A stretch of 43,165 nucleotides of DNA from a virus, in IMG/VR virus record IMGVR_UViG_3300031774_001518, positions 1-43,165 of that record. One strand, 5' to 3'. Position 1 is the stretch's first letter; every line of letters starts with the position of its first letter. The position numbers and the translations under genes are program-made. This document shows positions 8,161 through 42,782 of the stretch, piece by piece. The notes below the pieces were generated by a model that was given only the letters and a program-made list of their open reading frames with translations, was not told where the DNA came from and did not search any database.

Positions 8161-8420
8161 CATCAGAATACGAACTACCAGAGGACTGTGGTTACAATAA
8201 AGTTTACCATAACCAGTGGAGAACTGGACAATATGGTATTGGTATGGGAACCATTCAAAAAATTAGCAAAATAGCAAAAGGTAGGTGGGGTTGGTATTTT
8301 CAACCTAATGCAAATATGAACTATAATTCAGAGAAGTGGTTTGAGAACCAAGAGTGCATTATTACATTTGAAGATAAATGGGATTGTGCCCAAGTGGTAT
8401 TACAAGTTGAAGATGTATAA
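8157..8420 (+). CDS. Hypothetical protein, 87 residues
   Basis: ATGA overlap with the gene before it and 8-base overlap with the SGNH-like gene after it. The sequence is rich in Trp, Tyr and Gly (GRWGWYFQPNANMNY), as in small beta-sheet proteins, with three Cys. No signal peptide. Not recognised; a link with the SGNH gene is positional only. Confidence 0.55.
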   Translation: MTSEYELPEDCGYNKVYHNQWRTGQYGIGMGTIQKISKIAKGRWGWYFQPNANMNYNSEKWFENQECIITFEDKWDCAQVVLQVEDV

Positions 8421-27600: not shown

Positions 27601-28450
27601 CATCATAACTCTCATCCTCGATAGGACATGCTGGATGTATTTTAGTTTCTGCTTCTTTCCATTTCTTAGGAACTAATCGAATACCTCCCATTGCCATAGG
27701 ATATTTTTCTGTAAGTTGATAAGGCATTCTAAACACATGTAGCATATCTTGTTCAAAAGGATTAGGTATCCAATCAAATGTTTTTATATTTGTTCTGTGT
27801 TCCTGATCAATTAACCAAACATACTCGTCTGGTAGTATGTCTCTTTGTTGCATATCATTTACATCTTTAACATATAGTATAGGATATGTAACATTTGCGT
27901 CTAAGAACTTGTGAAACTTCGTATAAGCAGTTTTCCAATCTTTTGGATACAGTTTTATGCCGCCTTCCTCAGCAGGGTATCTGTGTTCTAGTTGTCCACG
28001 TAAATGAAATGAGTGTATAAAGTTAGGTTCAAAGTTATCTGGTGCCCAATTTATATCTGCGTTTAGTTTGTATTCTTTATCTACACACCATACATGACTA
28101 GCATACGGATTTTTATCAAAATACTTGCCTGGTGTTTTAGTGTGTAGTATATCAAATGACTTTTTACAAACGATTTTGTTTATCTGTTTAATACCATCGT
28201 TTGCTCTTTTTGGTATTAATCTTATTCCCCCGTAGTTGTTCGAATCCCACTTCCATACATGTTCGTATTTTGTATCATACATCTCAGGTCTATAACTAAA
28301 AACATCATAGTCTATAATTTCTATATTAGGTTCTATAACCCAATACATTTTAGTTTTAGGTGAGACATCTTCAGCAGACTGTATTTGCTTTGCAAATGGT
28401 AATATCTCTGTTAGGCTATTATTACTGCCAATGTAAAATACATCAAACAT
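24599..28450 (-). CDS. 1283-residue protein of twelve tandem GT-A-like domains
   Basis: The largest gene of the window. A unit of 87-137 residues occurs twelve times. Each unit has a W-(V/I/L)-(V/I)-D/E strand (residues 37, 121, 212, 310, 409, 505, 591, 680, 772, 874, 977, 1115), an (I/V)H(V/T)(F/W) strand, often QLxxKYP, and a GG(I/V/L)-x-(L/W)-x-P element (74, 163, 255, 360, 459, 547, 634, 725, 816, 912, 1021, 1158). The last unit is the best kept: FVLSYKEDLQRVEEH, then GVEGIFEAHKACAEQC, FWVVDADAEV with a D-x-D, and YGYGGVKLFP. This recalls the donor site of GT-A glycosyltransferases, and the eleventh keeps D-P-D. The other ten lack D-x-D and may be binding modules. Residues 1170-1283 form a separate helical domain (TWRSAFRECVKL, INDYTWLGV). 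No signal peptide. A transferase with sugar-binding or scaffold repeats is inferred. Confidence 0.72.
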   Translation of the reverse strand: MFDVFYIGSNNSLTEILPFAKQIQSAEDVSPKTKMYWVIEPNIEIIDYDVFSYRPEMYDTKYEHVWKWDSNNYGGIRLIPKRANDGIKQINKIVCKKSFDILHTKTPGKYFDKNPYASHVWCVDKEYKLNADINWAPDNFEPNFIHSFHLRGQLEHRYPAEEGGIKLYPKDWKTAYTKFHKFLDANVTYPILYVKDVNDMQQRDILPDEYVWLIDQEHRTNIKTFDWIPNPFEQDMLHVFRMPYQLTEKYPMAMGGIRLVPKKWKEAETKIHPACPIEDESYDVFYIDDDEFTVETYTEYAERSKTDWFWIVDREFDFNGKLLYVPAEHEKDFIHVFKLQGHLEERYPPEYTDAWDIRCGGIRLIHKDFDITKHKYQDDVVPVRYDVFYTDNINDYEAPARKSRTKMFWLVDSEHELNDVFKFVPGRHDQKTIQIFKIPNQLEHKYPRGITNVSDNRCGGVKLVPKNFNKDTIKYVATNPTSDRSYPVVKVDNVDEYTEVFQDCWIVDSEYELNQKIEWTPPLFQQNCIHTFHIGDQLRHKYPESMGGLRWVPVDWNGDIVIHSEMLNAIPEYPIYYQDDSSVNPNKDHSCWVADSSYRIDESIKWAPDSFDTDKIHVFHIHNQLTNKYPEEMGGLYWYPQQSTEEKVIHKDPLVLNAKTYPIHRVTNPSDFSAVTEDCWLVDEEYILDDSDFDFVPWQNNNEKDQVHVYQVRAQLEHKYPKEMGGIYWVPSNNKDAGFNIHDTTPFGEQLVFPIFDSEEKGRQETTASWFWVVSPEVEVLDTFDFTFVPKIWDHGKTHVWQKLHPITGRQYDYAGIQLCPKVAQTTGRPKYIREPACKQIEYPVYHLQPEDYKHGLNDVYVRLAGQSSTDMLWIVDAYTQIHEDFKFDYYPTQWDQKNVHVFADEDGEFKNIRLIPKSALNKEYTDKEIANNSFENLKQINTIASLRPKWPVIHLQSLERNEFINAIKDIETPFVWTIDPDIKVNQEVLDKGFMPDILDVNKIHTWQKENPRTNKVHAYGGLRLWPTDADYSDVTSDTLRQNKFRNLKYIKQIGSESILNEIFVLSYKEDLQRVEEHISILEQKDLIVKHVRGVEGIFEAHKACAEQCDTKMFWVVDADAEVTESFNFDYIPDVYDEEVVHVWASSNPINGLEYGYGGVKLFPTEMVKDANTWGIDFTTGLSNRFKSMPEVSCVTKFNTDAYSTWRSAFRECVKLTLNGDAESQERLKTWLNTRGDEDFTAEAVRGALEGNQFALANKDNLEQLSKINDYTWLGVKYESISN
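24956..28450 (-). repeat. Twelve-fold protein domain repeat
   Basis: Coding repeat of about 260-410 bases per unit, recognisable at protein level and only weakly at DNA level. This points to old duplication and later drift. Units 2-8 are the most alike (QL..KYP..GG), unit 12 the most divergent and the only one with D-A-D. Confidence 0.75.
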
Positions 28451-28454
28451 ATAC

Positions 28455-29975
28455 TTAATCGTTTGTGTGAACTTTTACGCCGTAATGCTTCTCGAATGCT
28501 TTTGCGTCTTCTATATCATTGACTATTGGTTGGCCTTTGATATTTAGACTTGTGTTTACTAGCATGGGACAGCCACTTACTTTGTTGTATTCACTGAGCA
28601 ACTTATACAGTTTAGGATGTTGTTTATGATTAACTGTTTGAACTCTACTGGTTCCATCCTCATGTATAATTGCAGGAAACTCCTCTGGTTTTTTGCACTT
28701 TGCAACGAATTGCATATATGGTGCATTGGTTATTCCTCCCGGCATGTCAAAATATTCATGGACATGCTTCTCTAGTATCATTGGTGCAAATGGTCTAAAC
28801 TTTTGACGTTTCTTAATTACATTCATCGCGTCTTTGACTTTTGGTCCTCTTGGATCAGAACATAGGGTTCTATTACCTAATGCTCTAGGACCAAACTCTG
28901 CTCTGCCATTTGCTATACCAAATATTTCCCCTTTCTTTAAACTTGCTAATGCTTTCTTAATAGGATATGGACCTTCTATGTTGTGGCCTAAGTAAGGCCC
29001 ATTCCAATTAATCTTCTTGCCTGTAGTATTATATTGATGTAGTGCCGCGGCACCTAAACTACTTCCAGCATCACCTGGATTGGGCATTATGTGTATATTC
29101 TTATATCCTAAATCAAATAGTCTACTATTTGCAACACAGTTTAATGCAACACCACCCATAAATACTAAATTCTCACTTCCAGTTACATCTCTGGCATATT
29201 CGGCATATGACATTACTCTTTTTTCTACTTGATTTTGTGCCGCATAGGCTATTGTGAAATCATCATATTCACTATACATGTCGCTTTTAAGTCCACGTTG
29301 TAAGTTACCACTGCCTCTTAAACTTTGTTTATTTGATATCCATGCATGGTGAAAAAAGAAATGATCCTTGCCCATTTGTCTACTAAGTCTTTTACCCTCT
29401 ATTGGATCACCATAAGCGGCCATACCCATTAAGATGTATTCATCTTCCATAGGCTTTAGTCCTACTCTGTGAGTCATAGCACTATAAAATAAACCTAAAC
29501 TACTAGGAAACCATACACTATGCAACTGCCTTAATTGTCCTTTTTTCCAGTGCCAGATGGTTGCTGTATCAAATTCTCCTATTGCGTCTATTACCATTAC
29601 AGCACATTCATCGAACTCGCTAGTTAATACACCAGCGGCCGCATGTGTCTCATGGTGCCAATATTCTTTGGTAGGTATTCCTTTAAGTTGAGGATAAAAG
29701 TTTTTTACCCATTTTCTTTGAGATGGTTCTCTCAATGCTCTCCAATTTCTACCATAAACATTTCTAAGGCGTTTACACCAATCCTTCTCATGAAATACAA
29801 TTTGGTCTGGTGTGCCATGCTCAAGGGCGGCATTTATTAATTTATTATTTAAAAATGGATCGTTCTTTTCTTTGCTGTATCTTTCTGAATGACTTGCAAA
29901 TAATATGTCTTCGCCATCTATAAGAGTTACTGCCGCGTCATGGAATCCTGAACTTATACCTAAAATCTTACTCAT
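28455..29975 (-). CDS. Carbamoyltransferase, NodU/CmcH family
   Basis: 506 residues, somewhat shorter than the 550-600 usual for the family. It has the N-terminal ILGISSGFHDAAVTLID (H12, D13), the metal-binding HHETHAA at 107-113, LVFMGGVALNCVANS, PNPGDAGSSLGAA and the C-terminal YrdC-like part with NGRAEFGPRALGNRT and FRPFAPMILE. NodU enzymes place a carbamoyl group on a sugar hydroxyl, CmcH on a cephem, via carbamoyl-adenylate. Here a sugar acceptor fits the context. It lies four bases from the repeat protein and overlaps the next small gene by four. Confidence 0.9.
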   Translation of the reverse strand: MSKILGISSGFHDAAVTLIDGEDILFASHSERYSKEKNDPFLNNKLINAALEHGTPDQIVFHEKDWCKRLRNVYGRNWRALREPSQRKWVKNFYPQLKGIPTKEYWHHETHAAAGVLTSEFDECAVMVIDAIGEFDTATIWHWKKGQLRQLHSVWFPSSLGLFYSAMTHRVGLKPMEDEYILMGMAAYGDPIEGKRLSRQMGKDHFFFHHAWISNKQSLRGSGNLQRGLKSDMYSEYDDFTIAYAAQNQVEKRVMSYAEYARDVTGSENLVFMGGVALNCVANSRLFDLGYKNIHIMPNPGDAGSSLGAAALHQYNTTGKKINWNGPYLGHNIEGPYPIKKALASLKKGEIFGIANGRAEFGPRALGNRTLCSDPRGPKVKDAMNVIKKRQKFRPFAPMILEKHVHEYFDMPGGITNAPYMQFVAKCKKPEEFPAIIHEDGTSRVQTVNHKQHPKLYKLLSEYNKVSGCPMLVNTSLNIKGQPIVNDIEDAKAFEKHYGVKVHTND

Positions 29976-30154
29976 CTATATATAAAAGGATCTCTTTTTC
30001 TCAATTCTTTAATTTTTTCTTTTAACTTCTCTTCTTCTTCTTTAGATAGGCTTAGGTCTTCACCTTCTCTGCCTCTTTCTTCATTGCCGTCAGCATTAAG
30101 TTCTGTTAATTCTTTTTGCTTCTTCTTAAAGTCTTTGTCTGTGTCTTTAGACAT
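29972..30154 (-). CDS. Small highly charged helical protein
   Basis: 60 residues, more than half Lys, Glu, Asp or Arg, predicted as one long helix (KDFKKKQKELTELN, KEEEEKLKEKIKELRKRD). ATGA overlap with the carbamoyltransferase and 8-base overlap with the SGNH gene before it. Could be a coiled-coil adaptor. Not recognised. Confidence 0.58.
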   Translation of the reverse strand: MSKDTDKDFKKKQKELTELNADGNEERGREGEDLSLSKEEEEKLKEKIKELRKRDPFIYR

Positions 30155-30764
30155 AGTTGCTCCTATAATACTCTAATAACTTATCAGTCATGGACTGATG
30201 AATTTTGGGGTCTACTGCGTGTTTAGTATTGCTCCAACCTTCTGTAAATTCATCCATTGCATCTTCGATTAAAGATGTGTTGCTTGTTAAATACTTATCT
30301 TTGTTAATCTGTTTCCATAATACAGACTGGTTTTCAGGGTTTATAGAATTATACATATTACAATACAAATAATCTATCCGTTTGCTTTCTAAATATAACT
30401 GTAACAAATATTGGTTAAGAATAGTATTTTGCTCTCCTATCTCCCAATCTGCTAAATGTAAATCTGCATATCTATAAAACTTTTGTAAATCTGTATTCTC
30501 ACTTTGCTTGTCTAATGTATAATTACGTCTTTCCCCATCAAAACTAAATTCAAATCTTTCATGTGTTGTCCAACCTATTAATACAAAATCAGGCTTTTCA
30601 TTTTGTTCTATATATTCTATTGTAGATCTAAGTATTCTTTGATTGCCACCGCCTGGCTCTGCTATGTTTACAAGATCATGTCCTAATTCTTTTGCAAATA
30701 AAATACCTACATTTGTATTAGCCTCTGAACCTGCTATATGACTACAACCATTTACTAAGAGCAT
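30147..30764 (-). CDS. SGNH/GDSL-like hydrolase paralogue 5, short
   Basis: 205 residues, the shortest of the seven. MLLVNGCSHIAGSEAN has the GCS motif; AEPGGGNQRILRSTIEYI, IGWTTHERFEF and the C-terminal VDPKIHQSMTDKLLEYY follow, where D-x-x-x-H rather than D-x-x-H is read, so the triad is less certain. It overlaps its neighbours by 8 and 10 bases and is followed upstream by the only GDS-type copy. Confidence 0.62.
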   Translation of the reverse strand: MLLVNGCSHIAGSEANTNVGILFAKELGHDLVNIAEPGGGNQRILRSTIEYIEQNEKPDFVLIGWTTHERFEFSFDGERRNYTLDKQSENTDLQKFYRYADLHLADWEIGEQNTILNQYLLQLYLESKRIDYLYCNMYNSINPENQSVLWKQINKDKYLTSNTSLIEDAMDEFTEGWSNTKHAVDPKIHQSMTDKLLEYYRSNYV

Positions 30765-31504
30765 TCTAAATACCTCCTGCTTAAAATCTCTGCCAGATTG
30801 TATTGCCCTTTAGGAGAAAAATGATTGTAATGATCGTCTCCCTCTCCTTGAACATAATCATCATGGCCATGAGCAAATTGTTGTAAGCAATTATAATTTT
30901 TGCCCTCCCATTCAAAGTTTAAAAAGTTGTCTTCATGTTTAGCAGTATGATAGAAACAATGATACTGTTGATAAGAAGTTATATTATATTGCTGTATTTT
31001 GTATTTCCATGCATCTCTACATGAATCTAACATTCTATAATATTCCTGAGGCGAACGTAAATACAACCACCATAATTCTATTGCTTGTTTTACTCTTGGG
31101 TCAAAACGTTTAGGGTCAGTTATATAAGGTGTGTCAGGACCTGGTAATGAACGTTCACCAGGATGCTTTTCATCCTCATGTTGGTTACCTCTGTCTTTGA
31201 GATCTCCACTATTACGCATTATTGTTCTGCTTTGGTCACTCCAAAGAAAAACAAAATGTGTTTGATTTATTTCTTCTTGTCTTTTACTTTTGAGCCATTC
31301 ACGGAATTCATGCAACATCCAAGTAGGACCATGTGCAGGTGTGCCTCTGTGAATTATTTCTAAGTTATGCTTTTGTGAAAATAAATCTAAGTATGTAGGT
31401 GTTGGTGGATACCATGCCCAATCTTTTCCTTTATGATGCTTCCGTCGTATTGTATCAAAACAATAACTATCACCAAAGAATGCTACTTTATCTATTTGAG
31501 GCAT
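30755..31504 (-). CDS. SGNH/GDSL-like hydrolase paralogue 6, true GDS motif
   Basis: 249 residues. MPQIDKVAFFGDSYCFD carries a genuine GDS block I, unlike the GCS of the other six. RGTPAHGPTWMLHEF, FLWSDQSRTIM and a C-terminal HYNHFSPKGQYNLAEIL (His in HFSP) complete the set. It anchors the family assignment for the others because the block order is the same. It overlaps the radical SAM gene before it by 17 bases, the direct junction of the two expanded families. Confidence 0.7.
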   Translation of the reverse strand: MPQIDKVAFFGDSYCFDTIRRKHHKGKDWAWYPPTPTYLDLFSQKHNLEIIHRGTPAHGPTWMLHEFREWLKSKRQEEINQTHFVFLWSDQSRTIMRNSGDLKDRGNQHEDEKHPGERSLPGPDTPYITDPKRFDPRVKQAIELWWLYLRSPQEYYRMLDSCRDAWKYKIQQYNITSYQQYHCFYHTAKHEDNFLNFEWEGKNYNCLQQFAHGHDDYVQGEGDDHYNHFSPKGQYNLAEILSRRYLECS

Positions 31505-32792
31505 ACATCAAATTCCATAGTTCAGGCAATGCTTCTCGCATTGACTCTTTACGTTGTTTATCTAACATCTCAGTATATTTCTTAAATGTAACTAATTCGT
31601 TTTCCCAATTATCTTTTCTATTCTCTTTTAGTGCTTTTATTGTTGCTTCTATACTTTGTTTGTTCTCTGGTCGATTAGCAAGTATTTTACTACGTTTAAG
31701 CCATTCCTCTAATCTACCTGCGGCAACTTCTCGCACTTGATCTGGGCAGTTTCTAAAATCTAAACTAGTAGGATAGTCGCAAATTAAAAATGTTAAGAAT
31801 ATTTTTCTACCGTATTCTTCTTCTAGTTCTTCAGCAAAGTCTAATAGTTTTGTAATTGTTAATACGTTGTAAATTTGTATTACAGGACTAAACAATACTG
31901 TTCCTACAACATTACTAGAACAATATGTTCTTAAGTTTTTCTCAACTTTGCTCCAGTGACTTGCTCCTCTGATGTATTCATTTTCATGTCCATAAGCATC
32001 TACACTTATACACATCAATACATTTTTAAATTGCTCTATTAGATCTGTAAAACGTTTTTGTATATTAGTCATATTGCTGTTAAACACTAATTCAATGTTT
32101 TTAGCAATACCCATTTCAACACACTTCTCCATTATCCAATAAACACGTTCTATGATTGTGGGTTCCCCTCCAGTGAAATATAATTTATTAACTCCTGGTA
32201 GCCACTCTTCAACTTGACGTAAAAATTCTGGATCATCTTCCCAATTTGTTATATTTTCAGCAAAATGACCCCATGTAAAGTTATCTCTTATAAACTGTCC
32301 TGCTTCAGGATCAGCATTTTCCATCTTTACATATTCTTTGTTTATTTGTGAACTGTTTTGAGGCTGGCACATTCTACACTTCAGGTTACACATGTTGCCC
32401 AGCCTAAAATCTAAATACATAGGTGGCTCTTCTACTCGATGTCCATTGCGTTTGCTTTGTTCAATCCTTTCAACAATTTCGTCACCTCTGTCACTGTATT
32501 CAAACCAGTCTCTGATGTAGTTAGTTCTATAACTCGGAAATCCCATATCTTCTAAATCATAACAATGTTCGCAACCTTTTACCACTTCGCCATCTAACAT
32601 TTGCTTACGGATTTTACGCATATGATCGTTATTCCAAACAGTTTCTATACGATCTCCTTTATTGAGGTCGAACATACTACCATCATCGTTTTTAAAATTG
32701 TCCCGTGCGACACAACACCAACTAACAGTTCCTGTCGGCTGTGTCATTACATGTATCCAAGGATACGGACAAAATGTCTTACTGTATTCCAT
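31488..32792 (-). CDS. Radical SAM enzyme with N-terminal SPASM-like motif, paralogue 1
   Basis: 434 residues. The N-terminus has C8-PYPW, C26-C27, the phrase IETVWNNDHMRKIRKQM and C74-x2-C77: the order of a SPASM/twitch cluster motif, which usually lies after the AdoMet domain. Then comes the radical SAM motif C135-x3-C139-x2-C142 (CNLKCRMC), TGGEP near 207-211 for AdoMet, and SVDAYGHENEYIRG. The end carries REALPELW, seen in the paralogues too. Such enzymes make a 5'-deoxyadenosyl radical and usually modify peptides or sugars. Substrate unknown. Overlaps of 14 and 17 bases join it to its neighbours. Confidence 0.82.
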   Translation of the reverse strand: MEYSKTFCPYPWIHVMTQPTGTVSWCCVARDNFKNDDGSMFDLNKGDRIETVWNNDHMRKIRKQMLDGEVVKGCEHCYDLEDMGFPSYRTNYIRDWFEYSDRGDEIVERIEQSKRNGHRVEEPPMYLDFRLGNMCNLKCRMCQPQNSSQINKEYVKMENADPEAGQFIRDNFTWGHFAENITNWEDDPEFLRQVEEWLPGVNKLYFTGGEPTIIERVYWIMEKCVEMGIAKNIELVFNSNMTNIQKRFTDLIEQFKNVLMCISVDAYGHENEYIRGASHWSKVEKNLRTYCSSNVVGTVLFSPVIQIYNVLTITKLLDFAEELEEEYGRKIFLTFLICDYPTSLDFRNCPDQVREVAAGRLEEWLKRSKILANRPENKQSIEATIKALKENRKDNWENELVTFKKYTEMLDKQRKESMREALPELWNLMYASNR

Positions 32793-33942
32793 TCCAATAC
32801 TCTTCTATAAATTTATATAGTGTAGGAAAAGTTTCTACAAAGTTTTCCTTCCTATATGTATCTCCAAATTTAGTTGTTCTTATGAATTGATAAAATTTAT
32901 CCATATCATATTGTTCATTATTAATAAAATCTAAAGTCCTAGTCACATACTCTGGTTGCTCACCACTATAATAATTTGTTATCTTTTTCTTAACTTCTTT
33001 AGGTAAGTTTTTTGCAGACATGTGCTTAGGTTCAAACACCATATTATAATGAATATGCATAGGTATATTTTGTTTAACATATTCAGTTAATTCTTTCAAG
33101 TTACATATATTTAGTATTCCTATAGTTTGAAACAATGCAAACTCTATATTTCCTTCTAATTGCGTGAACTTATGTATATTTTCAAATACTTCATCAAACT
33201 TCCCAGGGTGTCTAATATAATTAAAACGTTCTCCTACATCATCTATACTGAAAAATAATTGCACTTTTCTAAAGTGTTTCCATAAATGAACTTTGTCTTC
33301 TGGAAATACACTACCATTTGTATTATATGATAAATGTATATTTTTCGCAAAACCTTTTTCTATACATCTTTCTAGTATATCAAAATGTCTTTCTATCAAT
33401 AACGGTTCACCTCCAAAGAATTCAAATTTTACTATGCCACTTAACATAGTATCTAACTCTTCCCAAAAGTTTTCATTACGTTTAGGCCACATACCATTAT
33501 GATTAAATTTTAGTATTTCAGATTTTTTACTAGGGTCTATTAATATTTCTTCTTTGGCCCATTGACTACTTGCAAAAGTTGTGCATATTCTACATTTACT
33601 ATTACAAATATTTCCTAGTTTTAAATCTAATGAAGCCGGTTGTTCTGTTGCTTTAGGCTCATCAAAATCAAACATAAATCCATACCATATGTTTTCTCTT
33701 TGTCGTTTACTTTGTATTCCTGCTTCTTCTTCAAACCAACAGTTATTACATGCCTCTGGTTTCTCACCATTTAAAAATGCTTGTCTATAATTATCAAGCC
33801 ATTCACCTTCCCAAACTTCTTTTAATGATCCTCCATCTGCTAAACTAACACCTGCATCGTCTTGCATAATACAGCAAGGGGCAATAGTGCCGTTAGTTCT
33901 TGCCTCTAAATTTACAAACGGTAATACACAGAAGTTCTTCAT
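32779..33942 (-). CDS. Radical SAM enzyme with N-terminal SPASM-like motif, paralogue 2
   Basis: 387 residues, the smallest of the six. C5-VLPF, C23-C24, LKEVWEGEWLDNYRQAFL and C65-x2-C68 form the N-terminal motif. C113-x3-C117-x2-C120 (CNSKCRIC) is the AdoMet cluster, FGGEP lies at 176-180, and SIDDVGERFNYIRHPG follows. It ends with RKENFVETFPTLYKF, the shared tail. Its start overlaps paralogue 3 by four bases (ATGA) and its end overlaps paralogue 1 by 14. Function unknown. Confidence 0.82.
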   Translation of the reverse strand: MKNFCVLPFVNLEARTNGTIAPCCIMQDDAGVSLADGGSLKEVWEGEWLDNYRQAFLNGEKPEACNNCWFEEEAGIQSKRQRENIWYGFMFDFDEPKATEQPASLDLKLGNICNSKCRICTTFASSQWAKEEILIDPSKKSEILKFNHNGMWPKRNENFWEELDTMLSGIVKFEFFGGEPLLIERHFDILERCIEKGFAKNIHLSYNTNGSVFPEDKVHLWKHFRKVQLFFSIDDVGERFNYIRHPGKFDEVFENIHKFTQLEGNIEFALFQTIGILNICNLKELTEYVKQNIPMHIHYNMVFEPKHMSAKNLPKEVKKKITNYYSGEQPEYVTRTLDFINNEQYDMDKFYQFIRTTKFGDTYRKENFVETFPTLYKFIEEYWNGIQ

Positions 33943-35162
33943 AATTCTGCTAACTCCGGATATACTTCTGCAAAATTTTCTTCACGTAAATAATCAAACT
34001 CTATATTAAATCTTCTAAACTCATCAAATAGTTCTGTGTGATCATCATCTAAAAATTGTAGTGAACTTTTATAACCTTCTGTTGCTCTGCCTATATGATC
34101 TTTAGGTTCAAGCCATGCTAAATGTTTTTCCCATTTATATTTTATTTCTTCTTTGAACTCTGCAGGTAAAACACTCATTCTAAAACGTGGGTTGTTTAAT
34201 AAAACATTCATATACCAATCACCTGGTTTGATATATCCTTTGTCTACCCAACTCCTATGAAAGTCTGTTATATGCCAGGCGTTGTAGGCACTTACTGTTG
34301 CACTTACATAGAAATCAATCTCTGGTGATTCTTTTCTTAACCTCTCTATGTTGTTTTCAACATCTGCCCAAATAGTTCCTTTACGTTGATATTCTCCTCT
34401 GGCTCCTTCGGCATCTAAACTTGCACCTATACTTATATGGCTAAAGTTTTTCCATAAATCTAATACATCAAACTTTTTGTATTTTAATGTTGTAAAGTTT
34501 GTATTATAAAATATTCTTATATCAGTCTTACCCATTTCAACAAGTTTATTCATTACTCCCCAATGCTCGTCCATCATAATAGGCTCGCCGCCTGCCCAGT
34601 ATATTTGCTCTATATGTTCTAACATGGGTTCAAACTCTTCCATAAAGCCATCTACGTCTTTACGAATTTGTATAATTTTTTCTGTAGGAGTAATATTAAA
34701 ACTACTTTTAACTGCATCTTTAAACCAATTACTACTAAGTTCTGGTCCACAGTATCTGCAACGTAAATTACATACATTACTAAACCTAAAGTCTAAGTAA
34801 ACAATAGTTAAGTCGTCTAAACTGCCATCTGCATTTGTTTTCTCAACTTTATCCCAATGTGGTTCTAACCAATCTCTATTACTTCTTACTCTTAAACTGT
34901 CATGTCCTTTTGCTTCTTTTTCATAACATCTTACACACTCTTTACATTTCTTACCTTGCAACATGTTAAGACGAACTTGTTTCATTCTTTCACTGTTCCA
35001 AACTTCTTCTAAACTATTTTCTCGTAGGTCACCTATATTATTTTCCCACGGTGAATCACAACAAAGCATTGTTTTGCCATTAGGCCACGGGTGCATATGA
35101 ATCCATGGTAGGATACACATTACATCATCTTCGTGATCTTCAATATTTGTGCTGAATTCCAT
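33939..35162 (-). CDS. Radical SAM enzyme with N-terminal SPASM-like motif, paralogue 3
   Basis: 407 residues. C16-ILPW, C34-C35, GDLRENSLEEVWNSERMKQVR and C73/C76-x2-C79 at the front; this front part matches a normal SPASM domain best of the six. C131-x3-C135-x2-C138 (CNLRCRYC), AGGEP at 190-194 and SLDAEGARGEYQRKG follow, with REENFAEVYPELAEL at the end. The extra Cys (73) could add a ligand. A 23-base overlap with paralogue 4 and 4-base overlap with paralogue 2. Confidence 0.84.
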   Translation of the reverse strand: MEFSTNIEDHEDDVMCILPWIHMHPWPNGKTMLCCDSPWENNIGDLRENSLEEVWNSERMKQVRLNMLQGKKCKECVRCYEKEAKGHDSLRVRSNRDWLEPHWDKVEKTNADGSLDDLTIVYLDFRFSNVCNLRCRYCGPELSSNWFKDAVKSSFNITPTEKIIQIRKDVDGFMEEFEPMLEHIEQIYWAGGEPIMMDEHWGVMNKLVEMGKTDIRIFYNTNFTTLKYKKFDVLDLWKNFSHISIGASLDAEGARGEYQRKGTIWADVENNIERLRKESPEIDFYVSATVSAYNAWHITDFHRSWVDKGYIKPGDWYMNVLLNNPRFRMSVLPAEFKEEIKYKWEKHLAWLEPKDHIGRATEGYKSSLQFLDDDHTELFDEFRRFNIEFDYLREENFAEVYPELAEL

Positions 35163-36387
35163 GTTCTTCCAATAGTTCTATTAATTCTGGGAATACTTCC
35201 CTCCAACCTTCTTCATGTCCTCTAATTTTATCTAACTCGTCATTATACCTACAAAAGTGTTCCCACTTTGTTTCGTCCCATTCATCATTATTGAACATAC
35301 TTAATAATGTTCCGAGCTCATGTCTGTTACCCATCGTTTTTCTAAACTTATCATGTGCATGGCGTCTAACGACGGGAGGCAGGATTGCTGGTGATAGGTA
35401 ATCAGGGTCATATACAAAGTTCATATCTACAGGCACTGGTGCCCAATCTAAAAATTCATCTAGGTAGATATAACTATATGCACTAACTGTTTGTGTAATT
35501 CTTACTGTAAGTTCTGGCACTTGCATTATTTTTTCTAAATTTTTCTCTACGTCTGACCACTCCGTAGGATATCTTATAAATTTGTTTCTGTGATCAAAGT
35601 CGTCTATACTTGGACATACTCTTGCTTCTTTAAATTCTTTCCATAGTGGAATTGCTTTGTCAGGCACTTGCGTCATATTAATATTATACCACAGTATAAT
35701 ATTTTTACTACGTCCACTTTCTACAAGCATATCTAAAAATTTCCAATGTGCTTTTATAAGTGTAGGCTCTCCACCATTTATATAAAGCACTTCTAAATTA
35801 GGTGCACAATTAAATAAGTCCTCATAAAAGTTTTTGTCTTCAGGCCATTGGAAATCATGTTTGTGATCTAACCAACTGTATCCGTCATTTACGAACTCCA
35901 AAGAGTCGACAATTTTTTTATAATCCGCGACCCACCTTGAACTACTTGCTGGATTACAAGTCCTACAACGGACATTGCATACGTTACCAAGACGAAGTTC
36001 AACAAAACGAAGATCCATAGGTATGCTACCATCCTCACTTGTAAGTCTGGATGCGTAATTGGGGTTAAAGTCCTTATAAACCTTGGACTCGTGGACACGT
36101 TTGCTCTCAATTCCTTTTCTTTCTTCATCGTAGCATCTTTTACATGCTTCAGGCTCCACATCATTTAACATCTCCTTTCTAATTTGTTTAAAATAATCAC
36201 TATTCATATGTGTTTTTATATCGTGATCATTTAAGTTGAAAAATACATCTCCGTTATCTTTAAAGTTTCTGGCTCTATTTTTACCAGCAGTCATATCAGA
36301 TATACAGCAAGGAGTAACACCGCCATGAGGATGTGTTCCTAAGTGTAGCCAGGGCAAAGGACAAAATGTATCGTCTTTAATGCTCAT
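35140..36387 (-). CDS. Radical SAM enzyme with N-terminal SPASM-like motif, paralogue 4
   Basis: 415 residues. C9-PLPW, C27-C28, HMNSDYFKQIRKEML and C82-x2-C85, then C137-x3-C141-x2-C144 (CNVRCRTC), NGGEP at 204-208, SIDDFDHRNKFIRYP, and the tail WREVFPELIELL. A longer insert with charged residues lies between the CC pair and the C-x2-C pair. Overlaps of 4 and 23 bases with paralogues 5 and 3. No substrate peptide is evident beside it. Confidence 0.82.
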   Translation of the reverse strand: MSIKDDTFCPLPWLHLGTHPHGGVTPCCISDMTAGKNRARNFKDNGDVFFNLNDHDIKTHMNSDYFKQIRKEMLNDVEPEACKRCYDEERKGIESKRVHESKVYKDFNPNYASRLTSEDGSIPMDLRFVELRLGNVCNVRCRTCNPASSSRWVADYKKIVDSLEFVNDGYSWLDHKHDFQWPEDKNFYEDLFNCAPNLEVLYINGGEPTLIKAHWKFLDMLVESGRSKNIILWYNINMTQVPDKAIPLWKEFKEARVCPSIDDFDHRNKFIRYPTEWSDVEKNLEKIMQVPELTVRITQTVSAYSYIYLDEFLDWAPVPVDMNFVYDPDYLSPAILPPVVRRHAHDKFRKTMGNRHELGTLLSMFNNDEWDETKWEHFCRYNDELDKIRGHEEGWREVFPELIELLEEHGIQHKY

Positions 36388-37706
36388 ATAACTTTACCTT
36401 TTTCCATAGAACCGTATGTCATTGGATTGTCTGATGCTTTAATCATTTCCTTATTATAAAAGAAATCATGTTTCACAATTTCCCATAGTTCGCTAAATGC
36501 CTCTCTAAAGTTTTCTTTTCTATACAAGTCACCACTAACTATTTGTTGTCTAAACAGATTCCATCTATGTATTATTTCATTTTCAACTGTATCCGTAGGT
36601 AAATTACCATACGGTTTTACTGTTTCTACTCGAGGAGTTAAAACAAATTTTATTATACCATCTAACTCTTTACGCAAACTATCTTCAACTTCTGCATCTT
36701 GCAAAGGCTTTACTATACTAGGTTTCATTTCCTCAGGAAATACACTTGGGTTAAACCAAGTAGGAAACCTTGCTATATTATGGTAGATTATAAATGTAGG
36801 CCAACGTTCTCTAAATATTTTATGAAACTCTGCAAGATACATTACATTAAATGCTGTAATAGTATGACTAATACCTATACTTGCTTGTCTAGTTTCATTT
36901 AAAGTATGGAAGTAATCTAAGTTCTCACTTACTTCATCCCAATTTGCACCATGTCTAAGATATTCAAATCTCTCTTTAGTGGCTCCGTCTATGCTTACAT
37001 TAAACCCTACACTTGCAAAATTATCAGTTAATACTTTTAAAAACTTTTTGTTTGCAAATGTTCCGTTTGTGCAAGTGTTTAGATGTATGTTTTTTGCAAC
37101 ACCTTTGTCTACTAGTGTTGTTACAAATTTTCTAAACTCCTTCATATAAAATGGTTCTCCTCCCATTACTTCTAATTGTGTTATAGCAGGTAACCATTCA
37201 TCCATAGTAGTCCAAAACTTTGAACTTTCAAAGTCTAACAAAGGAATATCAACAACCTCTTCGTTGTAAGGCATGCCTCTGTCTTTTGCTTCTTTTACCC
37301 ACTTACTACTATTGTGTGGGTTACAACTCCTGCATTTAAGATTACAAGTGTTGCTCAAAGTTAATTGTATGTCTGCAGGCATGTCTGGTTCTAATTGATA
37401 ATTTATAGAACCATAACGTGCTTTTGCATATTCATTATACTGTTCTCTTTTACTCTTGTTGCCATTTTCTTCATCTGTCCAACAAGGAGAACAGTTATCA
37501 GGCAAGTTACCATCTCTGATTTCTTGCCTAATATTCTTGTAATATTCACTGTGGAATATTTCTTTTATAGAGTGCGAACCTAGTGTAACTTCTTTACCAT
37601 CTTCGTCATACACACGATCACGTGCTATACAACACGTTCTTACATGACCCAATGGTTCATTACTGATGTGTTTCCACAACAGGCTACAATATCTAGGTTC
37701 ACTCAT
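36384..37706 (-). CDS. Radical SAM enzyme with N-terminal SPASM-like motif, paralogue 5
   Basis: 440 residues. C7-SLLW replaces the usual C-x-PW, followed by C25-C26, IKEIFHSEYYKNIRQEI and C72-x2-C75. C121-x3-C125-x2-C128 (CNLKCRSC), MGGEP at 181-185, and SIDGATKERFEYLRHG follow, with RKENFREAFSELWE before a C-terminal extension of about 30 residues. First gene of the five-gene radical SAM run in transcription order, nine bases after the UDP-sugar dehydrogenase, which suggests the sugar enzymes and this array are co-expressed. Confidence 0.82.
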   Translation of the reverse strand: MSEPRYCSLLWKHISNEPLGHVRTCCIARDRVYDEDGKEVTLGSHSIKEIFHSEYYKNIRQEIRDGNLPDNCSPCWTDEENGNKSKREQYNEYAKARYGSINYQLEPDMPADIQLTLSNTCNLKCRSCNPHNSSKWVKEAKDRGMPYNEEVVDIPLLDFESSKFWTTMDEWLPAITQLEVMGGEPFYMKEFRKFVTTLVDKGVAKNIHLNTCTNGTFANKKFLKVLTDNFASVGFNVSIDGATKERFEYLRHGANWDEVSENLDYFHTLNETRQASIGISHTITAFNVMYLAEFHKIFRERWPTFIIYHNIARFPTWFNPSVFPEEMKPSIVKPLQDAEVEDSLRKELDGIIKFVLTPRVETVKPYGNLPTDTVENEIIHRWNLFRQQIVSGDLYRKENFREAFSELWEIVKHDFFYNKEMIKASDNPMTYGSMEKGKVI

Positions 37707-37715
37707 TCTCTATCT

Positions 37716-39041
37716 CTAAGCCATATGTCGAGTGTTGCCGTAATGAATTACTTCAACACCTTCTATTGGCGGAATTTTTCTCCAAGGATCAACAACTATA
37801 CTTCCTTCTGCAAATTTAAGTTCAGTTCCGTTAGCAGTAGCAACTGTAAGAGCCTCATCTGCTCCTGTTACTCTATGCTCGTCATACCAACCTTTTACAA
37901 AGTCTAATTGCTCACCATATGTTATCTCTGGATTGTGTGCTAACAAATAGACTGCTGGATTATTTAGTATTTCCTGTGAAGGTATTTCTTGCATTACTTC
38001 ATCATAATAACATAATTTAAATCCTGCTTCTTCAATATAGTGTCCTACTAACATACTCGGTGATCCTGCATCATAAGGCACTAACGGTTTGTATGCTTTA
38101 CCTACAATTACAATTGGTAATTCTGATATCATTGTTTTCGTTGTAGGATACAAAGTTCCTGCTAGTTCCATTAATCTTTTAGCCATATTTTTGGCTTGGA
38201 CTTCACGTGATAGCATTACTGCATCAAATAAGTCGTATCCTAAGTCAAGTTCTTCAGCCATCCAACGTAGGGCAATATTATCACGAGGGTGACATGCACC
38301 TCCGTCGCCCATACCTGGCTTCATATAACCTGGTCCCATTATACGTCTATCCGATGTTGCTAAAGCATCACATACTATTTCTGCATTTATGTTGCCTTGC
38401 TTTTCCGCGACGTCTTGTATCATATTTACTAAAGATACCTTCGCAGATATAAACGTATTATAAAACACTTTGATACATTCGCATTCGTCCCACGTTCCTA
38501 TTACATAACGTGGTTCGTTTTGCATAATTGTTTTATAAAAGTCAACAAGTTCTTTTGCGTCTCCTGTTTCACTTCCATTCTCAGTTCCTATCATAACCAT
38601 TTCTGGGTTTACCATATCCCACTTTACTGTGCCCATAGCAATTAAGTATGGATTATACACAAATCGAGTGTTGGTCATTATAGGGACAAATTCCCTTCTT
38701 GTTGTGCCTGGTAGCACAGTCGATATAAGGACTATTAGTTGTTCCTGAGTAGCAACCGCATTTACTTCTGAAAGAACTTGCTTGACTAACGTATAGTCGA
38801 AGTCTTTGTTCGGTAAATGGCTGGTTGGTGCTTTTCCATCATATTGAGGATCATGTGGAGTTTGAACTGCAACAAAAACAATATCTTGTCCTATTACAGC
38901 ATCTACCAAGTTATCAACCATACTAAAATTTTCTGGTTCTCTTGGCTCTACATCATATCCTACAACATCATGGACCTCAGCAACCATCTCGGCGCAGGCT
39001 TGTCCTAACTTGCCTACCCCAATGAATCCGATTGAGGCCAT
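37716..39041 (-). CDS. UDP-glucose/GDP-mannose-type sugar dehydrogenase
   Basis: 441 residues, the normal length. IGFIGVGKLGQACA (4-17) is the NAD-binding Rossmann motif with G8, G10 and G13. The catalytic Cys is C250 in MGDGGACHPRDNIAL, where the usual CFPKD reads CHPRD. A C-terminal UDP-binding region with IVIVGKAYKP follows. The enzyme oxidises the C6 of a nucleotide sugar to the uronic acid, for example UDP-glucose to UDP-glucuronate; UDP-HexNAc or GDP-mannose are alternatives. An AGGAGAG site precedes the ATG, and a T4-late-like box lies about 35 bases upstream, so a transcript may begin here and run into the radical SAM genes. Confidence 0.85.
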   Translation of the reverse strand: MASIGFIGVGKLGQACAEMVAEVHDVVGYDVEPREPENFSMVDNLVDAVIGQDIVFVAVQTPHDPQYDGKAPTSHLPNKDFDYTLVKQVLSEVNAVATQEQLIVLISTVLPGTTRREFVPIMTNTRFVYNPYLIAMGTVKWDMVNPEMVMIGTENGSETGDAKELVDFYKTIMQNEPRYVIGTWDECECIKVFYNTFISAKVSLVNMIQDVAEKQGNINAEIVCDALATSDRRIMGPGYMKPGMGDGGACHPRDNIALRWMAEELDLGYDLFDAVMLSREVQAKNMAKRLMELAGTLYPTTKTMISELPIVIVGKAYKPLVPYDAGSPSMLVGHYIEEAGFKLCYYDEVMQEIPSQEILNNPAVYLLAHNPEITYGEQLDFVKGWYDEHRVTGADEALTVATANGTELKFAEGSIVVDPWRKIPPIEGVEVIHYGNTRHMA

Positions 39042-39077
39042 TTTTCTCTCCTATTGAGTTGTTGTATTAAATACAGT

Positions 39078-39087
39078 TATATTTATC
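39078..39087 (-). promoter_or_regulatory. T4-late-promoter-like motif on minus strand
   Basis: On the minus strand it reads GATAAATATA, identical to 9513-9522. A start of transcription about 8 bases on would leave a leader of some 30 bases with AGGAGAG before the dehydrogenase ATG. The 50 bases between the SGNH gene and the dehydrogenase are otherwise unremarkable. Confidence 0.35.
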
Positions 39088-39091
39088 GGGT

Positions 39092-39952
39092 TTATTTAGT
39101 TGCTGTTAGCAGTCTAGGTAGCAGATATTTGTGAGTAAATATTTCTTGTGCAGATGCACTAGGATGGTCTCCGTCATCATATGACCCTGATCTTCCTTTA
39201 AAATCTTCCATTGCTACCTCAAAAACAGTTCTACCTTCTGCTCCTGCCCAGCACCATTTAGAGAAATCTAAGTAGTTGTTTGCATATTGTTGTAGTTTTT
39301 TGAAGTCGCATACATAAGGACTACCGCCTGAATTGTAACTAAAGTCATCTTTTATATCTACATTAAGTTTATTTTTTAACATATCTGCACTTTGTTTATT
39401 CCAATAGTTTTGATAACTTGTAAAAACAAATGGTATATTTCTTTCTATTAGATACTGTTGTAAATCAATCATGTTATTAATAGAAGATAAAATACGTTCT
39501 AAAGGTGCTTCGTGTATTCTATAACCGGGCAAGTATTTTAAAAATAAATCTACTATAATCTTGTTGTCCGGAAATAGTTCTGACAAAGGACGGTCTTCTC
39601 TACACCATACGCCTCCTGTGAAAAACCAATTTCTATTATTTTGTTTTTTGTAACCCACATATCTAGTTTTAGGATTAGTTTGCATATTACATAATTCAAA
39701 TTCTTCGTTACTAATATTAACGTCTACTCTTCCTAACCCTGACCACATTACTACTACAGCATCTACATCATTATGCTCTAAGTATTCTATTGTGGTTTCT
39801 TTTATATAACGATTGCCTGCGGCATTTGAACCAAAGTTAATTATTTCTGCATTTGGTAATTCTTTTTCTAAAAACATAGGCCATGTATGTCTTTCTGTTC
39901 TGTGTGGACTTGTCTTAGCAGTATAACTGCAACCATTACATAATATTTTCAT
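39092..39952 (-). CDS. SGNH/GDSL-like hydrolase paralogue 7
   Basis: 286 residues. MKILCNGCSYTAKTSPH, GSNAAGNRYIKETTIEYL, VMWSGLGRVDV and the C-terminal DDGDHPSASAQEIF give the four blocks with a good D-x-x-H. Together with paralogues 1 and 4 it has the clearest catalytic His. It overlaps the sulfotransferase by 17 bases, so acyl and sulfo chemistry are translated together. Confidence 0.7.
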   Translation of the reverse strand: MKILCNGCSYTAKTSPHRTERHTWPMFLEKELPNAEIINFGSNAAGNRYIKETTIEYLEHNDVDAVVVMWSGLGRVDVNISNEEFELCNMQTNPKTRYVGYKKQNNRNWFFTGGVWCREDRPLSELFPDNKIIVDLFLKYLPGYRIHEAPLERILSSINNMIDLQQYLIERNIPFVFTSYQNYWNKQSADMLKNKLNVDIKDDFSYNSGGSPYVCDFKKLQQYANNYLDFSKWCWAGAEGRTVFEVAMEDFKGRSGSYDDGDHPSASAQEIFTHKYLLPRLLTATK

Positions 39953-40628
39953 ATCGTGTTATCTCTGGTTTTAGATACTTGTCTATTAGATAATAGTGTT
40001 TACAGTTAAGTAGAGCGTCTCTAACACTATCTATGTCTCTAGGCTTGCTTGTATTCATTCTTACGCCTGGTTCTAACTCTAATACTTCTTTTATAAACCA
40101 ATCTAAATTACTGCTATCTATATACGATATGTTTTTAAATTGCTCACAAAAGTCAATAAAATTGCATGTATGATAATTGGTATGTAACGTAAATGCTCTG
40201 CCCCAACTATGTTTTAATTCTTGCTCTCCATCACAAATAAATTGTGTTAAGTAAAATAGTCGGTCTATGTATTCAACTAGCCTATCACGATCATAAACAA
40301 TTTTTTCCCATAAAGGCAAAAATTCATCTCCTGGTGCAATACCACTTATATAATCTTGTAATATTTCTTTGAACCCACTTACATATCTTTTCCAAGGATT
40401 TCTTATTACAAAAAATATTTCATAGTCTTGTTTATGCAAGTGTTCCACTATATCTTCTTGTCTACTCATACCAGCAAAGTGTTCTGGTCCTATGCCATAC
40501 CAATCAACTTCTGCTTCGCCAACAGTTTTCCAATCTGCTTTGTTTTCTAAAAGATTTTGTAAACTAGTTGTTCCAGTTTTACCTTTACTAAATATACAAA
40601 TCTTTTTATTGTCGTTTATTGCTAACAT
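39936..40628 (-). CDS. Sulfotransferase
   Basis: 230 residues. SKGKTGTTS at 14-22 is the 5'-phosphosulfate-binding loop for PAPS, and FVIRNPWKRYVSGF (73-86) the 3'-phosphate-binding motif with R76 and S84. These are the two signatures of PAPS-dependent sulfotransferases that act on carbohydrates or small molecules. The acceptor is likely a glycan given the neighbours. No signal peptide or membrane anchor, so it acts in the cytoplasm. Its start overlaps the radical SAM paralogue 6 stop by one base. Confidence 0.82.
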   Translation of the reverse strand: MLAINDNKKICIFSKGKTGTTSLQNLLENKADWKTVGEAEVDWYGIGPEHFAGMSRQEDIVEHLHKQDYEIFFVIRNPWKRYVSGFKEILQDYISGIAPGDEFLPLWEKIVYDRDRLVEYIDRLFYLTQFICDGEQELKHSWGRAFTLHTNYHTCNFIDFCEQFKNISYIDSSNLDWFIKEVLELEPGVRMNTSKPRDIDSVRDALLNCKHYYLIDKYLKPEITRYENIM

Positions 40629-42031
40629 TATCTGTAATTGTGTTTCCTGTCAGTTCTCATCCACCAGTCAAATAATTCTGGGTCTCTTGCATAGATATCT
40701 TGTATTCTCAATTTTTCTTTTGGTCTTATCTCTGCAATTTTATCTTGCCAACCTCTACCATTAAAGAAACTGTCTTCGTGTTGATCAGGAAACTGCTCTT
40801 CAAAGTTTGGTGTTACTTTCATGTTTTCTAATTCGTTTATTAATGTTTGTTGTTTTTGTGTTGCTCTGGGTTTTATGTATGCTAAATTTTCATCTATAAT
40901 TCTATTAAGTATGTGTCTAGGCCATGCCATAGCACTCATAACAATATCAGGATGGAAAGCGAACATGCGTTTTGTTTCTATCTTAACATCTAGTTCTAAT
41001 GCATAATCAAAAAAGTTTTTAAGGTCAAACATGCCTGGGCCTGTAAGAGTTAAGTCCATTAACATTTTATCATTGCCGCCAGGTAATGCTACTCCTTCTC
41101 TAAAGTTTTTATCCCATTGTTCCCAATTTAGTCCTGTCCTTATGTATTCACCTATTTCTCCTGTGCCGTCTATACTTGCACACATGGTCCAATCTTTTGC
41201 TTGTGGCAACCAGTCATATAAGTAATGCTTACCAAATCGCACTCTGCTAAGATTACTATTATAACGTAAGTGAACTTTATTTAGATTTCCGTCTTGGGAG
41301 AGTCTATCCATAGACTTCCAATGTATATCATACATCAGTGGTTCTCCACCAACCCAATATATTTCCTCAACTGTTCCTGATTTAATATATTCCCAAAACT
41401 CTTCTTCTACAACTTCTTTCTGAAACGTCTCGATGACCTCCTTGTTCTCAGGAACCATAAACGGCTGTTGTTCCGGAGTCCAAAGGTCATGCTTTCTTTT
41501 TTCTGCTTCCCATGCCGAACTGAGAGGTTCGCCACACATACGACACTTAAAATTACACAGGTTACTGACCCGGTAATCAAAAGAAATTGGTTCCATAGTA
41601 GTATATCCATCTTCGTCTGTCTCCTCAAAACATTGATCGATTTTATTTTCAAACAAAAAGCCTGTAAACCACTGACGGTATGTGCTTTGACTTAATATAC
41701 TATCATTACAGACTGCACATTGTGGTATCTCCTCTCCAGACATAAGTTTCTTTCTTATATCCATCATGTAAGGAGAATTCCAATGTTCTTTCAAACTTAT
41801 AGGTTGGTAGTCTTCTATTGTTCCTACTTCTTTGTATTTGCCTGTGCTTTTATCATTACTGGCATCAATATACTGACGTTGCATCATGTGTTCTTCTCTA
41901 CTAGCACAACACATACGTCTTTCTGACTGTGGACTTATATATGTATGAGTCCATGGTGCCGTGCAGAAAACCTTATTAAGTGAGTCAGGACTCTGTTGTC
42001 CTCTCTCCCATTTAGGTTTTATTTTAGCCAT
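40628..42031 (-). CDS. Radical SAM enzyme with N-terminal SPASM-like motif, paralogue 6
   Basis: 467 residues from ATG at 42031; a TTG two codons earlier is possible. It is the longest and stands apart from the other five. C23-TAPW, C41-C42, SLKEHWNSPYMMDIRKKLM and C105-x2-C108 form the front motif. C159-x3-C163-x2-C166 (CNFKCRMC), VGGEP at 227-231 and SIDGTGEIGEYIRTG follow. The C-terminus (IQDIYARDPELFDWW) keeps the PEL element. Between sulfotransferase and NeuB-like genes, with 1- and 8-base overlaps, so it is tied to the sugar genes rather than to the five-gene run. Confidence 0.82.
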   Translation of the reverse strand: MAKIKPKWERGQQSPDSLNKVFCTAPWTHTYISPQSERRMCCASREEHMMQRQYIDASNDKSTGKYKEVGTIEDYQPISLKEHWNSPYMMDIRKKLMSGEEIPQCAVCNDSILSQSTYRQWFTGFLFENKIDQCFEETDEDGYTTMEPISFDYRVSNLCNFKCRMCGEPLSSAWEAEKRKHDLWTPEQQPFMVPENKEVIETFQKEVVEEEFWEYIKSGTVEEIYWVGGEPLMYDIHWKSMDRLSQDGNLNKVHLRYNSNLSRVRFGKHYLYDWLPQAKDWTMCASIDGTGEIGEYIRTGLNWEQWDKNFREGVALPGGNDKMLMDLTLTGPGMFDLKNFFDYALELDVKIETKRMFAFHPDIVMSAMAWPRHILNRIIDENLAYIKPRATQKQQTLINELENMKVTPNFEEQFPDQHEDSFFNGRGWQDKIAEIRPKEKLRIQDIYARDPELFDWWMRTDRKHNYR

Positions 42032-42782
42032 TTGCAATCTCTAATTGATTCATATTTACAAAAAAGTCATAGAATTTCTTAGGTGATAAGGTTGCTCCTA
42101 TGGAGTCATCATCTCCTAAAAACTTTTCTATAAAGTCTACATTTTTAAACACTACCGCACAGTCGGGGAATATATCCTCACATCTTCCTTCATACCCAAC
42201 GCCGACATGTGGTCTACTCTTGTATTTTTCTAAAACTTCCAAATTCAATTCTTCTATTTGAGGTGGAAATTTAGTTGTAGAATGATAAAGTTTCACTCTC
42301 TTTTTAAATTTAGGTTTCTGTAGTTTATCTAGTAATAAATCTATAAGTCTATCATTACCTCCGTATGTAATCCATTTAAAGTGATCAGCAACAAACATAA
42401 CAAGTCCTTCATCATCTCTTGAATCATAATGAACTTTTATTTCTTCTGTGCCTGTATTTCTTTTTACCCATTCTGCAGATGCTACATCAGTAACACTCCA
42501 TTTGAGCGGTATTCCAATATTGTCTATTAATTTAAGAATCTTTTCACAAGTAAATTCATCTACTTCACTACGGTTTGCTACTTCTATATAAGGAAGTGTT
42601 CCCCATTTAGAATCTATTTGTAAATATTGCTTGTTAGGTTGTATTGCTAAGTGAGGTGTCGACTTAGATAGAACAACGGCATCAGCATTACATTGTGCGG
42701 CACTGATTATTCTTTTCTCTAATACACTATAATCATTCTCGTGACCTATACTGATGTTTGCATGTAATTCTATATCTCTCAA
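42024..42782 (-). CDS. NeuB-like TIM-barrel protein
   Basis: 252 residues, shorter than sialic acid synthases (about 340, which carry a C-terminal SAF domain missing here). The N-terminus HANISIGHENDYSVLEKRIISAAQCNADAVVLSKSTP follows the NeuB pattern (E-I-x-x-N-H/G..., then A-A...G/A-D-A-V), and VGVGYEGRCEDIFPDCAVVFKNVDFIEKFLGDDDSIGATLSP resembles the NeuB end of the barrel. NeuB joins phosphoenolpyruvate to an N-acetyl-hexosamine to make nonulosonic acids. Several catalytic positions are not clearly met, so a related pyruvate-sugar reaction or a non-enzymatic role is possible. Confidence 0.55.
   Translation of the reverse strand: MRDIELHANISIGHENDYSVLEKRIISAAQCNADAVVLSKSTPHLAIQPNKQYLQIDSKWGTLPYIEVANRSEVDEFTCEKILKLIDNIGIPLKWSVTDVASAEWVKRNTGTEEIKVHYDSRDDEGLVMFVADHFKWITYGGNDRLIDLLLDKLQKPKFKKRVKLYHSTTKFPPQIEELNLEVLEKYKSRPHVGVGYEGRCEDIFPDCAVVFKNVDFIEKFLGDDDSIGATLSPKKFYDFFVNMNQLEIANG

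Follow-up and report, generated by a model that had tools for sequence, protein, structure and literature searches.

Known enzymes close to those described here combine an S-adenosylmethionine (AdoMet, SAM) radical barrel with a half or a full SPASM domain. The full domain carries the seven-cysteine motif CX9-15GX4C-gap-CX2CX5CX3C-gap-C and the SPASM/twitch fold is described as a hairpin followed by a helix (PMC6231123), while twitch denotes a kind of domain that binds one auxiliary cluster (PMC9012708). In BtrN, MoaA, SkfB, anSME and CteB, the cluster domain follows the barrel. The reverse order is, judged by its sequence profile, the defining trait of a family already curated by NCBI (NF033640, N_Twi_rSAM, 'twitch domain-containing radical SAM protein'; curated cut-off 170 bits), although our literature search found no study with a title or abstract describing this family. 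In viruses, radical SAM-rich marine phages and radical SAM cassettes in host-recognition clusters are already on record: the marine T4-like phage TARA_ERS488813_N000010 is reported to carry 12 radical SAM genes together with an iron-sulfur (Fe-S) carrier (PMC5332604), and the account of pelagimyophages includes a hypervariable host recognition cluster of tail fibres, glycosyltransferases and radical SAM gene cassettes as well as a UDP-glucose 6-dehydrogenase among genes related to lipopolysaccharide (LPS) (PMC7029224). Here, we analyse a viral sequence of 43,165 bases from IMG/VR (the window), which encodes six N_Twi_rSAM members, rSAM-A to rSAM-F (copies A to F; Table 1), in an array that is conserved with its neighbours among related viruses.

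All six proteins matched NF033640 over its full length at about twice the cut-off or near it (303-398 bits, profile positions 1/3 to 386/397 of 398; NCBIfam). At the level of the family they do not differ from other members; what sets the window apart is the presence of six members in one fixed phage array. The motifs C-x12-G-x4-CC, C-x2-C, CX3CX2C and GGEP occur in this order in every copy, with S replacing G in rSAM-F. The original prediction, made from the sequence, of six radical SAM paralogues with a set of cysteines in front of the AdoMet domain is thereby confirmed, and chance is excluded as an explanation. The C-terminal ENF..PEL tail, which had been ascribed to most copies, is clean in B, C and E and not in A, D and F. 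In a six-way alignment, copy C shares 26-32% identity with the five others. rSAM-F starts with a TTG codon; the start given originally, at 42031, is an in-frame ATG. Neighbouring genes from rSAM-A to rSAM-E overlap by 4-23 bases and therefore look translationally coupled. Between about 21.6 and 43 kb, nearly all long open reading frames (ORFs) lie on the minus strand, and both the AT and the GC skew of the window flip at about 20-22 kb.

Profile searches supported the proposed relationship of the front cysteines to SPASM, with Pfam SPASM (PF13186) at the N-terminus followed by Radical_SAM (PF04055) in all six proteins. The former scored above its gathering threshold in every copy and the latter in five, rSAM-D falling below (23.2 vs 29.5 bits). 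The label itself needs correction. The second half of the SPASM motif (CX2CX5CX3C) was absent in all 77 family members tested, and CX9-15GX4C was found after the barrel motif in none of them. Since no CX5CX3C half follows the front cysteine set, the front domain of all six is predicted to be a half-SPASM, i.e. a one-cluster twitch, and not a full SPASM domain. The domain order was rightly described as opposite to that of the known enzymes, as it is in BtrN, MoaA, SkfB and anSME that the cluster domain comes last, but it is not new, having been curated as N_Twi_rSAM. In a further difference from the C-terminal twitch/SPASM enzymes, profile scans detected no recognition element (RRE) for ribosomally synthesised and post-translationally modified peptides (RiPPs) in the window copies.

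The structure of copy C was predicted with AlphaFold2 (AF2) on an alignment of 77 relatives, and the model was confident over the whole length (predicted local distance difference test, pLDDT, 94; predicted template modelling score, pTM, 0.89). It starts with a short hairpin (residues 22-25 and 30-32), followed by helices and then the barrel. Most matches in the PDB covered about 240-260 columns, roughly the barrel, and included anSME, viperin, MoaA and BlsE, with the best E-value for CteB; the CX3CX2C cluster motif is present in all six copies, and the fold of copy C matches AdoMet radical barrels. A comparison with predicted structures of viral proteins gave matches over about 400 columns to phage proteins with a generic name or none, mostly with query TM-scores of 0.65-0.93, which indicates that, as far as predicted structures tell, the two-domain arrangement of twitch and barrel is common in phages.

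With copy C as a query we found 29 viral contigs, and with copy A 36 viral loci on largely the same contigs. The order shared among the 29 contigs is (NeuB-like)-F-UGDH-E-D-(variable gene)-C-B-(variable gene)-A-(SGNH)-60-amino-acid ORF-carbamoyltransferase (CarbT)-glycosyltransferase (GT) repeat protein-methyltransferase. Wherever the sequence from a relative extends far enough, the UGDH gene is found upstream of E. A more distant contig (L064) has F-D-C-B-A in the same order, next to three more N_Twi genes, and lacks UGDH between F and D. Across these viruses the copies fall into six one-to-one orthologue clades, and longer, diverged members form a seventh group. In the close clade, the median identity is 82-86% for A, C, D and F, compared to 61% for B and E, with alleles of rSAM-B going down to 41% where A, C, D and F stay near 82-86%. 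Nearly all complete copies retain the catalytic and the auxiliary cysteines, and the twitch motif is kept in all B, all C, 30/30 A, 28/29 D and 28/28 E (the counts for F include fragments). The fixed and unusually dense six-member orthologous array with its fixed neighbours is the new content of this analysis, the family itself being known.

In a tree with bacterial members, of the kind suggested originally as a check, monophyly of the viral set was rejected (approximately unbiased test, p = 8.5e-6; long branches are a caveat). The array thus seems to have been assembled from already distinct lineages. Recent duplication within the phage was considered and rejected on the same grounds, together with the separate clade of each copy and the low identity (about 23-32%) of the paralogues to copy C. 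The idea of a multi-substrate pathway holds insofar as such deep, separately conserved paralogues are consistent with different steps or different substrates. A near-identity search against isolate phages and a plasmid search with rSAM-A gave no match, and in the literature on radical SAM and cassette genes we found no description of a conserved array.

Table 1 Positions of the six radical SAM genes and of neighbouring genes in the window, with the evidence for each.
Feature	Coordinates	Strand	Evidence
rSAM-A, 434 amino acids (aa), N-terminal-twitch radical SAM	31488..32792	-	NF033640 363 bits; SPASM 3.6e-7; Radical_SAM 2e-10; orthologues 53-94%, 29 contigs
rSAM-B, 387 aa, one of two fast-evolving members	32779..33942	-	NF033640 351 bits; orthologues down to 41%
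rSAM-C, 407 aa, modelled copy	33939..35162	-	NF033640 398 bits; AF2 pLDDT 94, pTM 0.89; nearest PDB folds CteB, anSME
rSAM-D, 415 aa	35140..36387	-	NF033640 361 bits; SPASM 4.1e-7
rSAM-E, 440 aa, second fast-evolving member	36384..37706	-	NF033640 303 bits; within-clade median identity 61%
rSAM-F, 469 aa, upstream of UGDH gene	40628..42037	-	NF033640 306 bits; SPASM 4.7e-5
UGDH (UDP-glucose/GDP-mannose dehydrogenase-like)	37716..39041	-	PF00984 3.5e-18, PF03721 2.9e-13; synteny
DUF6071 / SGNH-like protein	39092..39952	-	PF19547 7.5e-8
Sulfotransferase-like protein (weak)	39936..40628	-	PF03567 5e-4, under gathering score
NeuB-like protein (nonulosonate synthase family)	42024..42782	-	PF03102 1.4e-11; 46-85% in relatives
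SGNH-like protein 2, variable position	30755..31504	-	No Pfam match; in a few relatives
DUF6071 / SGNH-like protein 3, usually present	30147..30764	-	PF19547 5.8e-8; synteny
60-aa ORF, conserved C-terminus LRKRDPF[IV]YR	29972..30154	-	In 31/31 array loci; CarbT-associated
CarbT, NodU-type carbamoyltransferase	28455..29975	-	PF02543 3.8e-39, PF16861 2.1e-51
1283-aa repeat protein, C-terminal GT-A-like glycosyltransferase domain at 24599-25291	24599..28450	-	Motifs, AF2, Foldseek
Methyltransferase-like, conserved block end	23163..23834	-	Weak Methyltransf matches 8.5e-4; synteny

The 1283-amino-acid repeat protein matched nothing in Pfam or PHROGs, and a search of isolate phages with its C-terminal third was likewise empty; it was placed by fold search alone. 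Its last 230 residues hold an invariant D-x-D and YGxGG, and this domain (AF2 pLDDT 90) matched the GT-A proteins GtrB, HddC, RmlT, PcManGT and ArnC in Foldseek. Degenerate repeats (W-[IV]-x-D-x-E ... GG[IL]xxxPK) precede this one complete GT-A domain; as the length of the protein differs among viruses, the number of repeats probably varies. Further SGNH-like 'GCSxS' proteins, mostly without a Pfam match, are encoded at 8341-9249, 19810-20685, 21630-22469 and 23821-24618. Scans for promoters and terminators returned no more hits than in shuffled sequence.

In some relatives whose contigs extend further, the array lies just downstream of tail genes or close to them. In G011 (L100), as in a contig (L095) filed under the Rickettsiales metagenome-assembled genome MED657, genes with tail-fibre and virion-structural PHROG matches precede the block on its own strand at a distance of a few genes. 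In G015 (L098), N_Twi members have short-tail-fibre and virion-structural matches no more than a few genes away. The MED657 contig (L095-L096, G006 contig C6) runs from tail-fibre-like genes to N_Twi, GT, SGNH and UGDH genes, and it looks like a phage fragment. An AdoMet synthetase gene is located inside the radical SAM block of G011 (L100:9822-10922) and is also carried by G018 and G020, and an A-type Fe-S carrier gene is carried by G010 and G015.

This block of the relatives resembles the pelagimyophage cluster in that radical SAM cassettes and glycosyltransferases occupy the tail-fibre region, whereas the section of that account concerned with the cluster describes no conserved six-member array or orthology (PMC7029224). 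TARA_ERS488813_N000010 is likewise a marine phage with many radical SAM genes; the likeness is one of description, as the corresponding passage does not state their family (PMC5332604). With copy C as a query, the search of isolate phages turned up relatives only in the Vibrio phages K566 and K567, at about 25% identity and with different neighbours; K566 has five N_Twi matches, two of them above the cut-off.

Members of the family are clustered in bacteria too, chiefly in Bdellovibrionota, so clustering is a habit of the family and not a peculiarity of the window phage. These members were found by a degenerate DNA pattern, an alignment search of genome contigs having given no relative. Of the 25 N_Twi matches in one Bdellovibrionia genome, more than a dozen fall within about 30 kb (L093-L094, G003:C1:745513-774880), and this island also encodes Asp/Asn beta-hydroxylases and a 2-oxoglutarate oxygenase. 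Over all bacterial N_Twi neighbours, GDSL/SGNH proteins are the commonest apart from radical SAM proteins; Asp/Asn beta-hydroxylases occur as well, and a carbamoyltransferase once.

From the family, motifs, fold, gene order, orthology and neighbours of the six genes, and from the tail-gene adjacency in relatives, we infer activity, substrate and use of the product as follows. There is about an even chance, in our estimate, that the six genes encode radical-based tailoring steps, taken in succession, on the sugars of one phage-encoded glycoconjugate destined for the tail fibre or the host surface. All six would be working N_Twi enzymes that cleave AdoMet at the CX3CX2C cluster to give the 5'-deoxyadenosyl radical, and the one auxiliary Fe-S cluster of the front half-SPASM would take up or relay an electron or hold the substrate. 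Each would catalyse a different step (oxidation, epimerisation, deoxygenation or similar); a sugar-like substrate has a precedent in the twitch enzyme BtrN, which oxidises a cyclitol (PMC9012708). UGDH would supply an activated uronic acid and the NeuB-like protein would act as a nonulosonate-type synthase, with glycosyl transfer by the GT-A repeat protein, carbamoylation by CarbT, methylation and SGNH-type acyl exchange completing a product that may modify phage tail fibres or host surface polysaccharide.

Support for tailoring of sugars comes from the family and its conserved motifs, the composition of the block, its fixed order in 29 contigs and the GT-A fold of the repeat protein, as well as from the tail-gene adjacency, the AdoMet synthetase and Fe-S carrier genes, the GDSL/SGNH neighbours in bacteria and the pelagimyophage cluster (PMC7029224). 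The much faster variation of B and E compared to A, C, D and F would be expected of steps that determine a variable surface feature. Several points weigh against it: the tail-gene adjacency comes from the relatives L095, L098 and L100, the window ending before that flank; several block proteins are named by weak matches only; the PDB neighbours of the barrel include the peptide maturases CteB and anSME as well as MoaA and BlsE; the neighbours in the Bdellovibrionia island fit peptide or lipid substrates equally well; and no substrate is known to us for any N_Twi enzyme.

The main competing explanation is modification of a peptide or protein, the target being a RiPP-like precursor or else side chains in tail-fibre proteins encoded nearby, and it would agree with the frequent role of SPASM/twitch enzymes as peptide maturases, with CteB and anSME as the best PDB fold matches, with the adjacent tail-fibre genes in relatives and with the Asp/Asn hydroxylases beside bacterial N_Twi genes. 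It would also give a role to a conserved short ORF within the block. The original prediction had seen no short precursor peptide beside the radical SAM genes, and thus missed the 60-amino-acid ORF adjoining the array, which belongs to a family without a Pfam match whose front varies while its tail is near-invariant. A search of viral contigs with this ORF, however, gave 55 further loci, about 48 of which have a carbamoyltransferase in their 4-kb flanks, usually adjacent, and most of which show no N_Twi gene in the stretch covered. Since it accompanies carbamoyltransferases in viruses without N_Twi seen nearby, it is not a radical SAM precursor and is most simply read as a putative carbamoyltransferase partner; a mycofactocin-like precursor, suggested by the C-terminal I/V-Y, was rejected for the same reason. 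As a lead, the bacterial CarbT partner DUF5989 ends in a similar APFIY motif. The wider family (L007-L035, L064, L103-L157) is unannotated, is found next to a NodU-type carbamoyltransferase in almost every case, and has a free N-terminus and the near-invariant C-terminus [EK]LRKRDPF[IV]Y[RK]. No other family of small ORFs is present in nearly all arrays, except for a CxxC ORF of about 65 amino acids (23 loci). This ORF of 65-80 amino acids, with CxxCGG.LP.H.GVC (L008:16485-16682 and 22 further loci), separates CarbT from the GT repeat protein, was not seen in the window and is a possible zinc-binding protein. As the profile scans detected no RRE-like domain before the barrel, and the neighbours of the array are sugar enzymes, we regard peptide or protein modification as rather unlikely.

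A subset of the preferred explanation holds that the same glycan chemistry targets the host surface only, a change of LPS or O-antigen blocking co-infection, as proposed in the pelagimyophage account for glycosyltransferases (PMC7029224). The NeuB-like and UGDH genes fit a surface polysaccharide, but the co-location with tail genes fits either target, and the block has no recognised gene for a polymerase, a flippase or a ligase, so that this restriction seems to us distinctly unlikely. On the plus strand, FolE-like, QueD-like and QueE-like ORFs follow each other at 2457-4556 (the QueE-like one alone was profile-scanned), a row that suggests 7-deazaguanine DNA modification. That the array acts with this radical SAM gene and its companions in DNA base hypermodification is very improbable, given that 27 kb and a change of strand separate the two, that the block has no recognised base-modifying partner and that arrays of the same family in bacteria adjoin GDSL proteins and hydroxylases. 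A role as viperin-like antiviral or counter-defence nucleotide enzymes is hardly credible: viperin is among the fold matches and viperin_w_prok matched five of the six copies weakly (4e-4 to 2e-8), but these matches reach 20-34 bits against an NF038283 cut-off of 180 bits, compared to the far higher N_Twi_rSAM scores, and are confined to the barrel, while viperin lacks an N-terminal twitch.

Within the proposed tailoring of glycoconjugate sugars, a stricter version is possible but doubtful, namely an obligatory pathway of six non-interchangeable twitch-first enzymes, with B and E exchangeable, that builds a heavily remodelled, variable sugar of the virion or the host surface. If true, this would be a viral natural-product-like pathway without a described product. 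The six-member orthologous set with fixed neighbours and full cluster motifs provides a defined, testable pathway toward the first substrate of an N_Twi enzyme, and the load of radical SAM genes that the host-recognition region carries could plausibly account for the Fe-S and AdoMet genes of marine phages.

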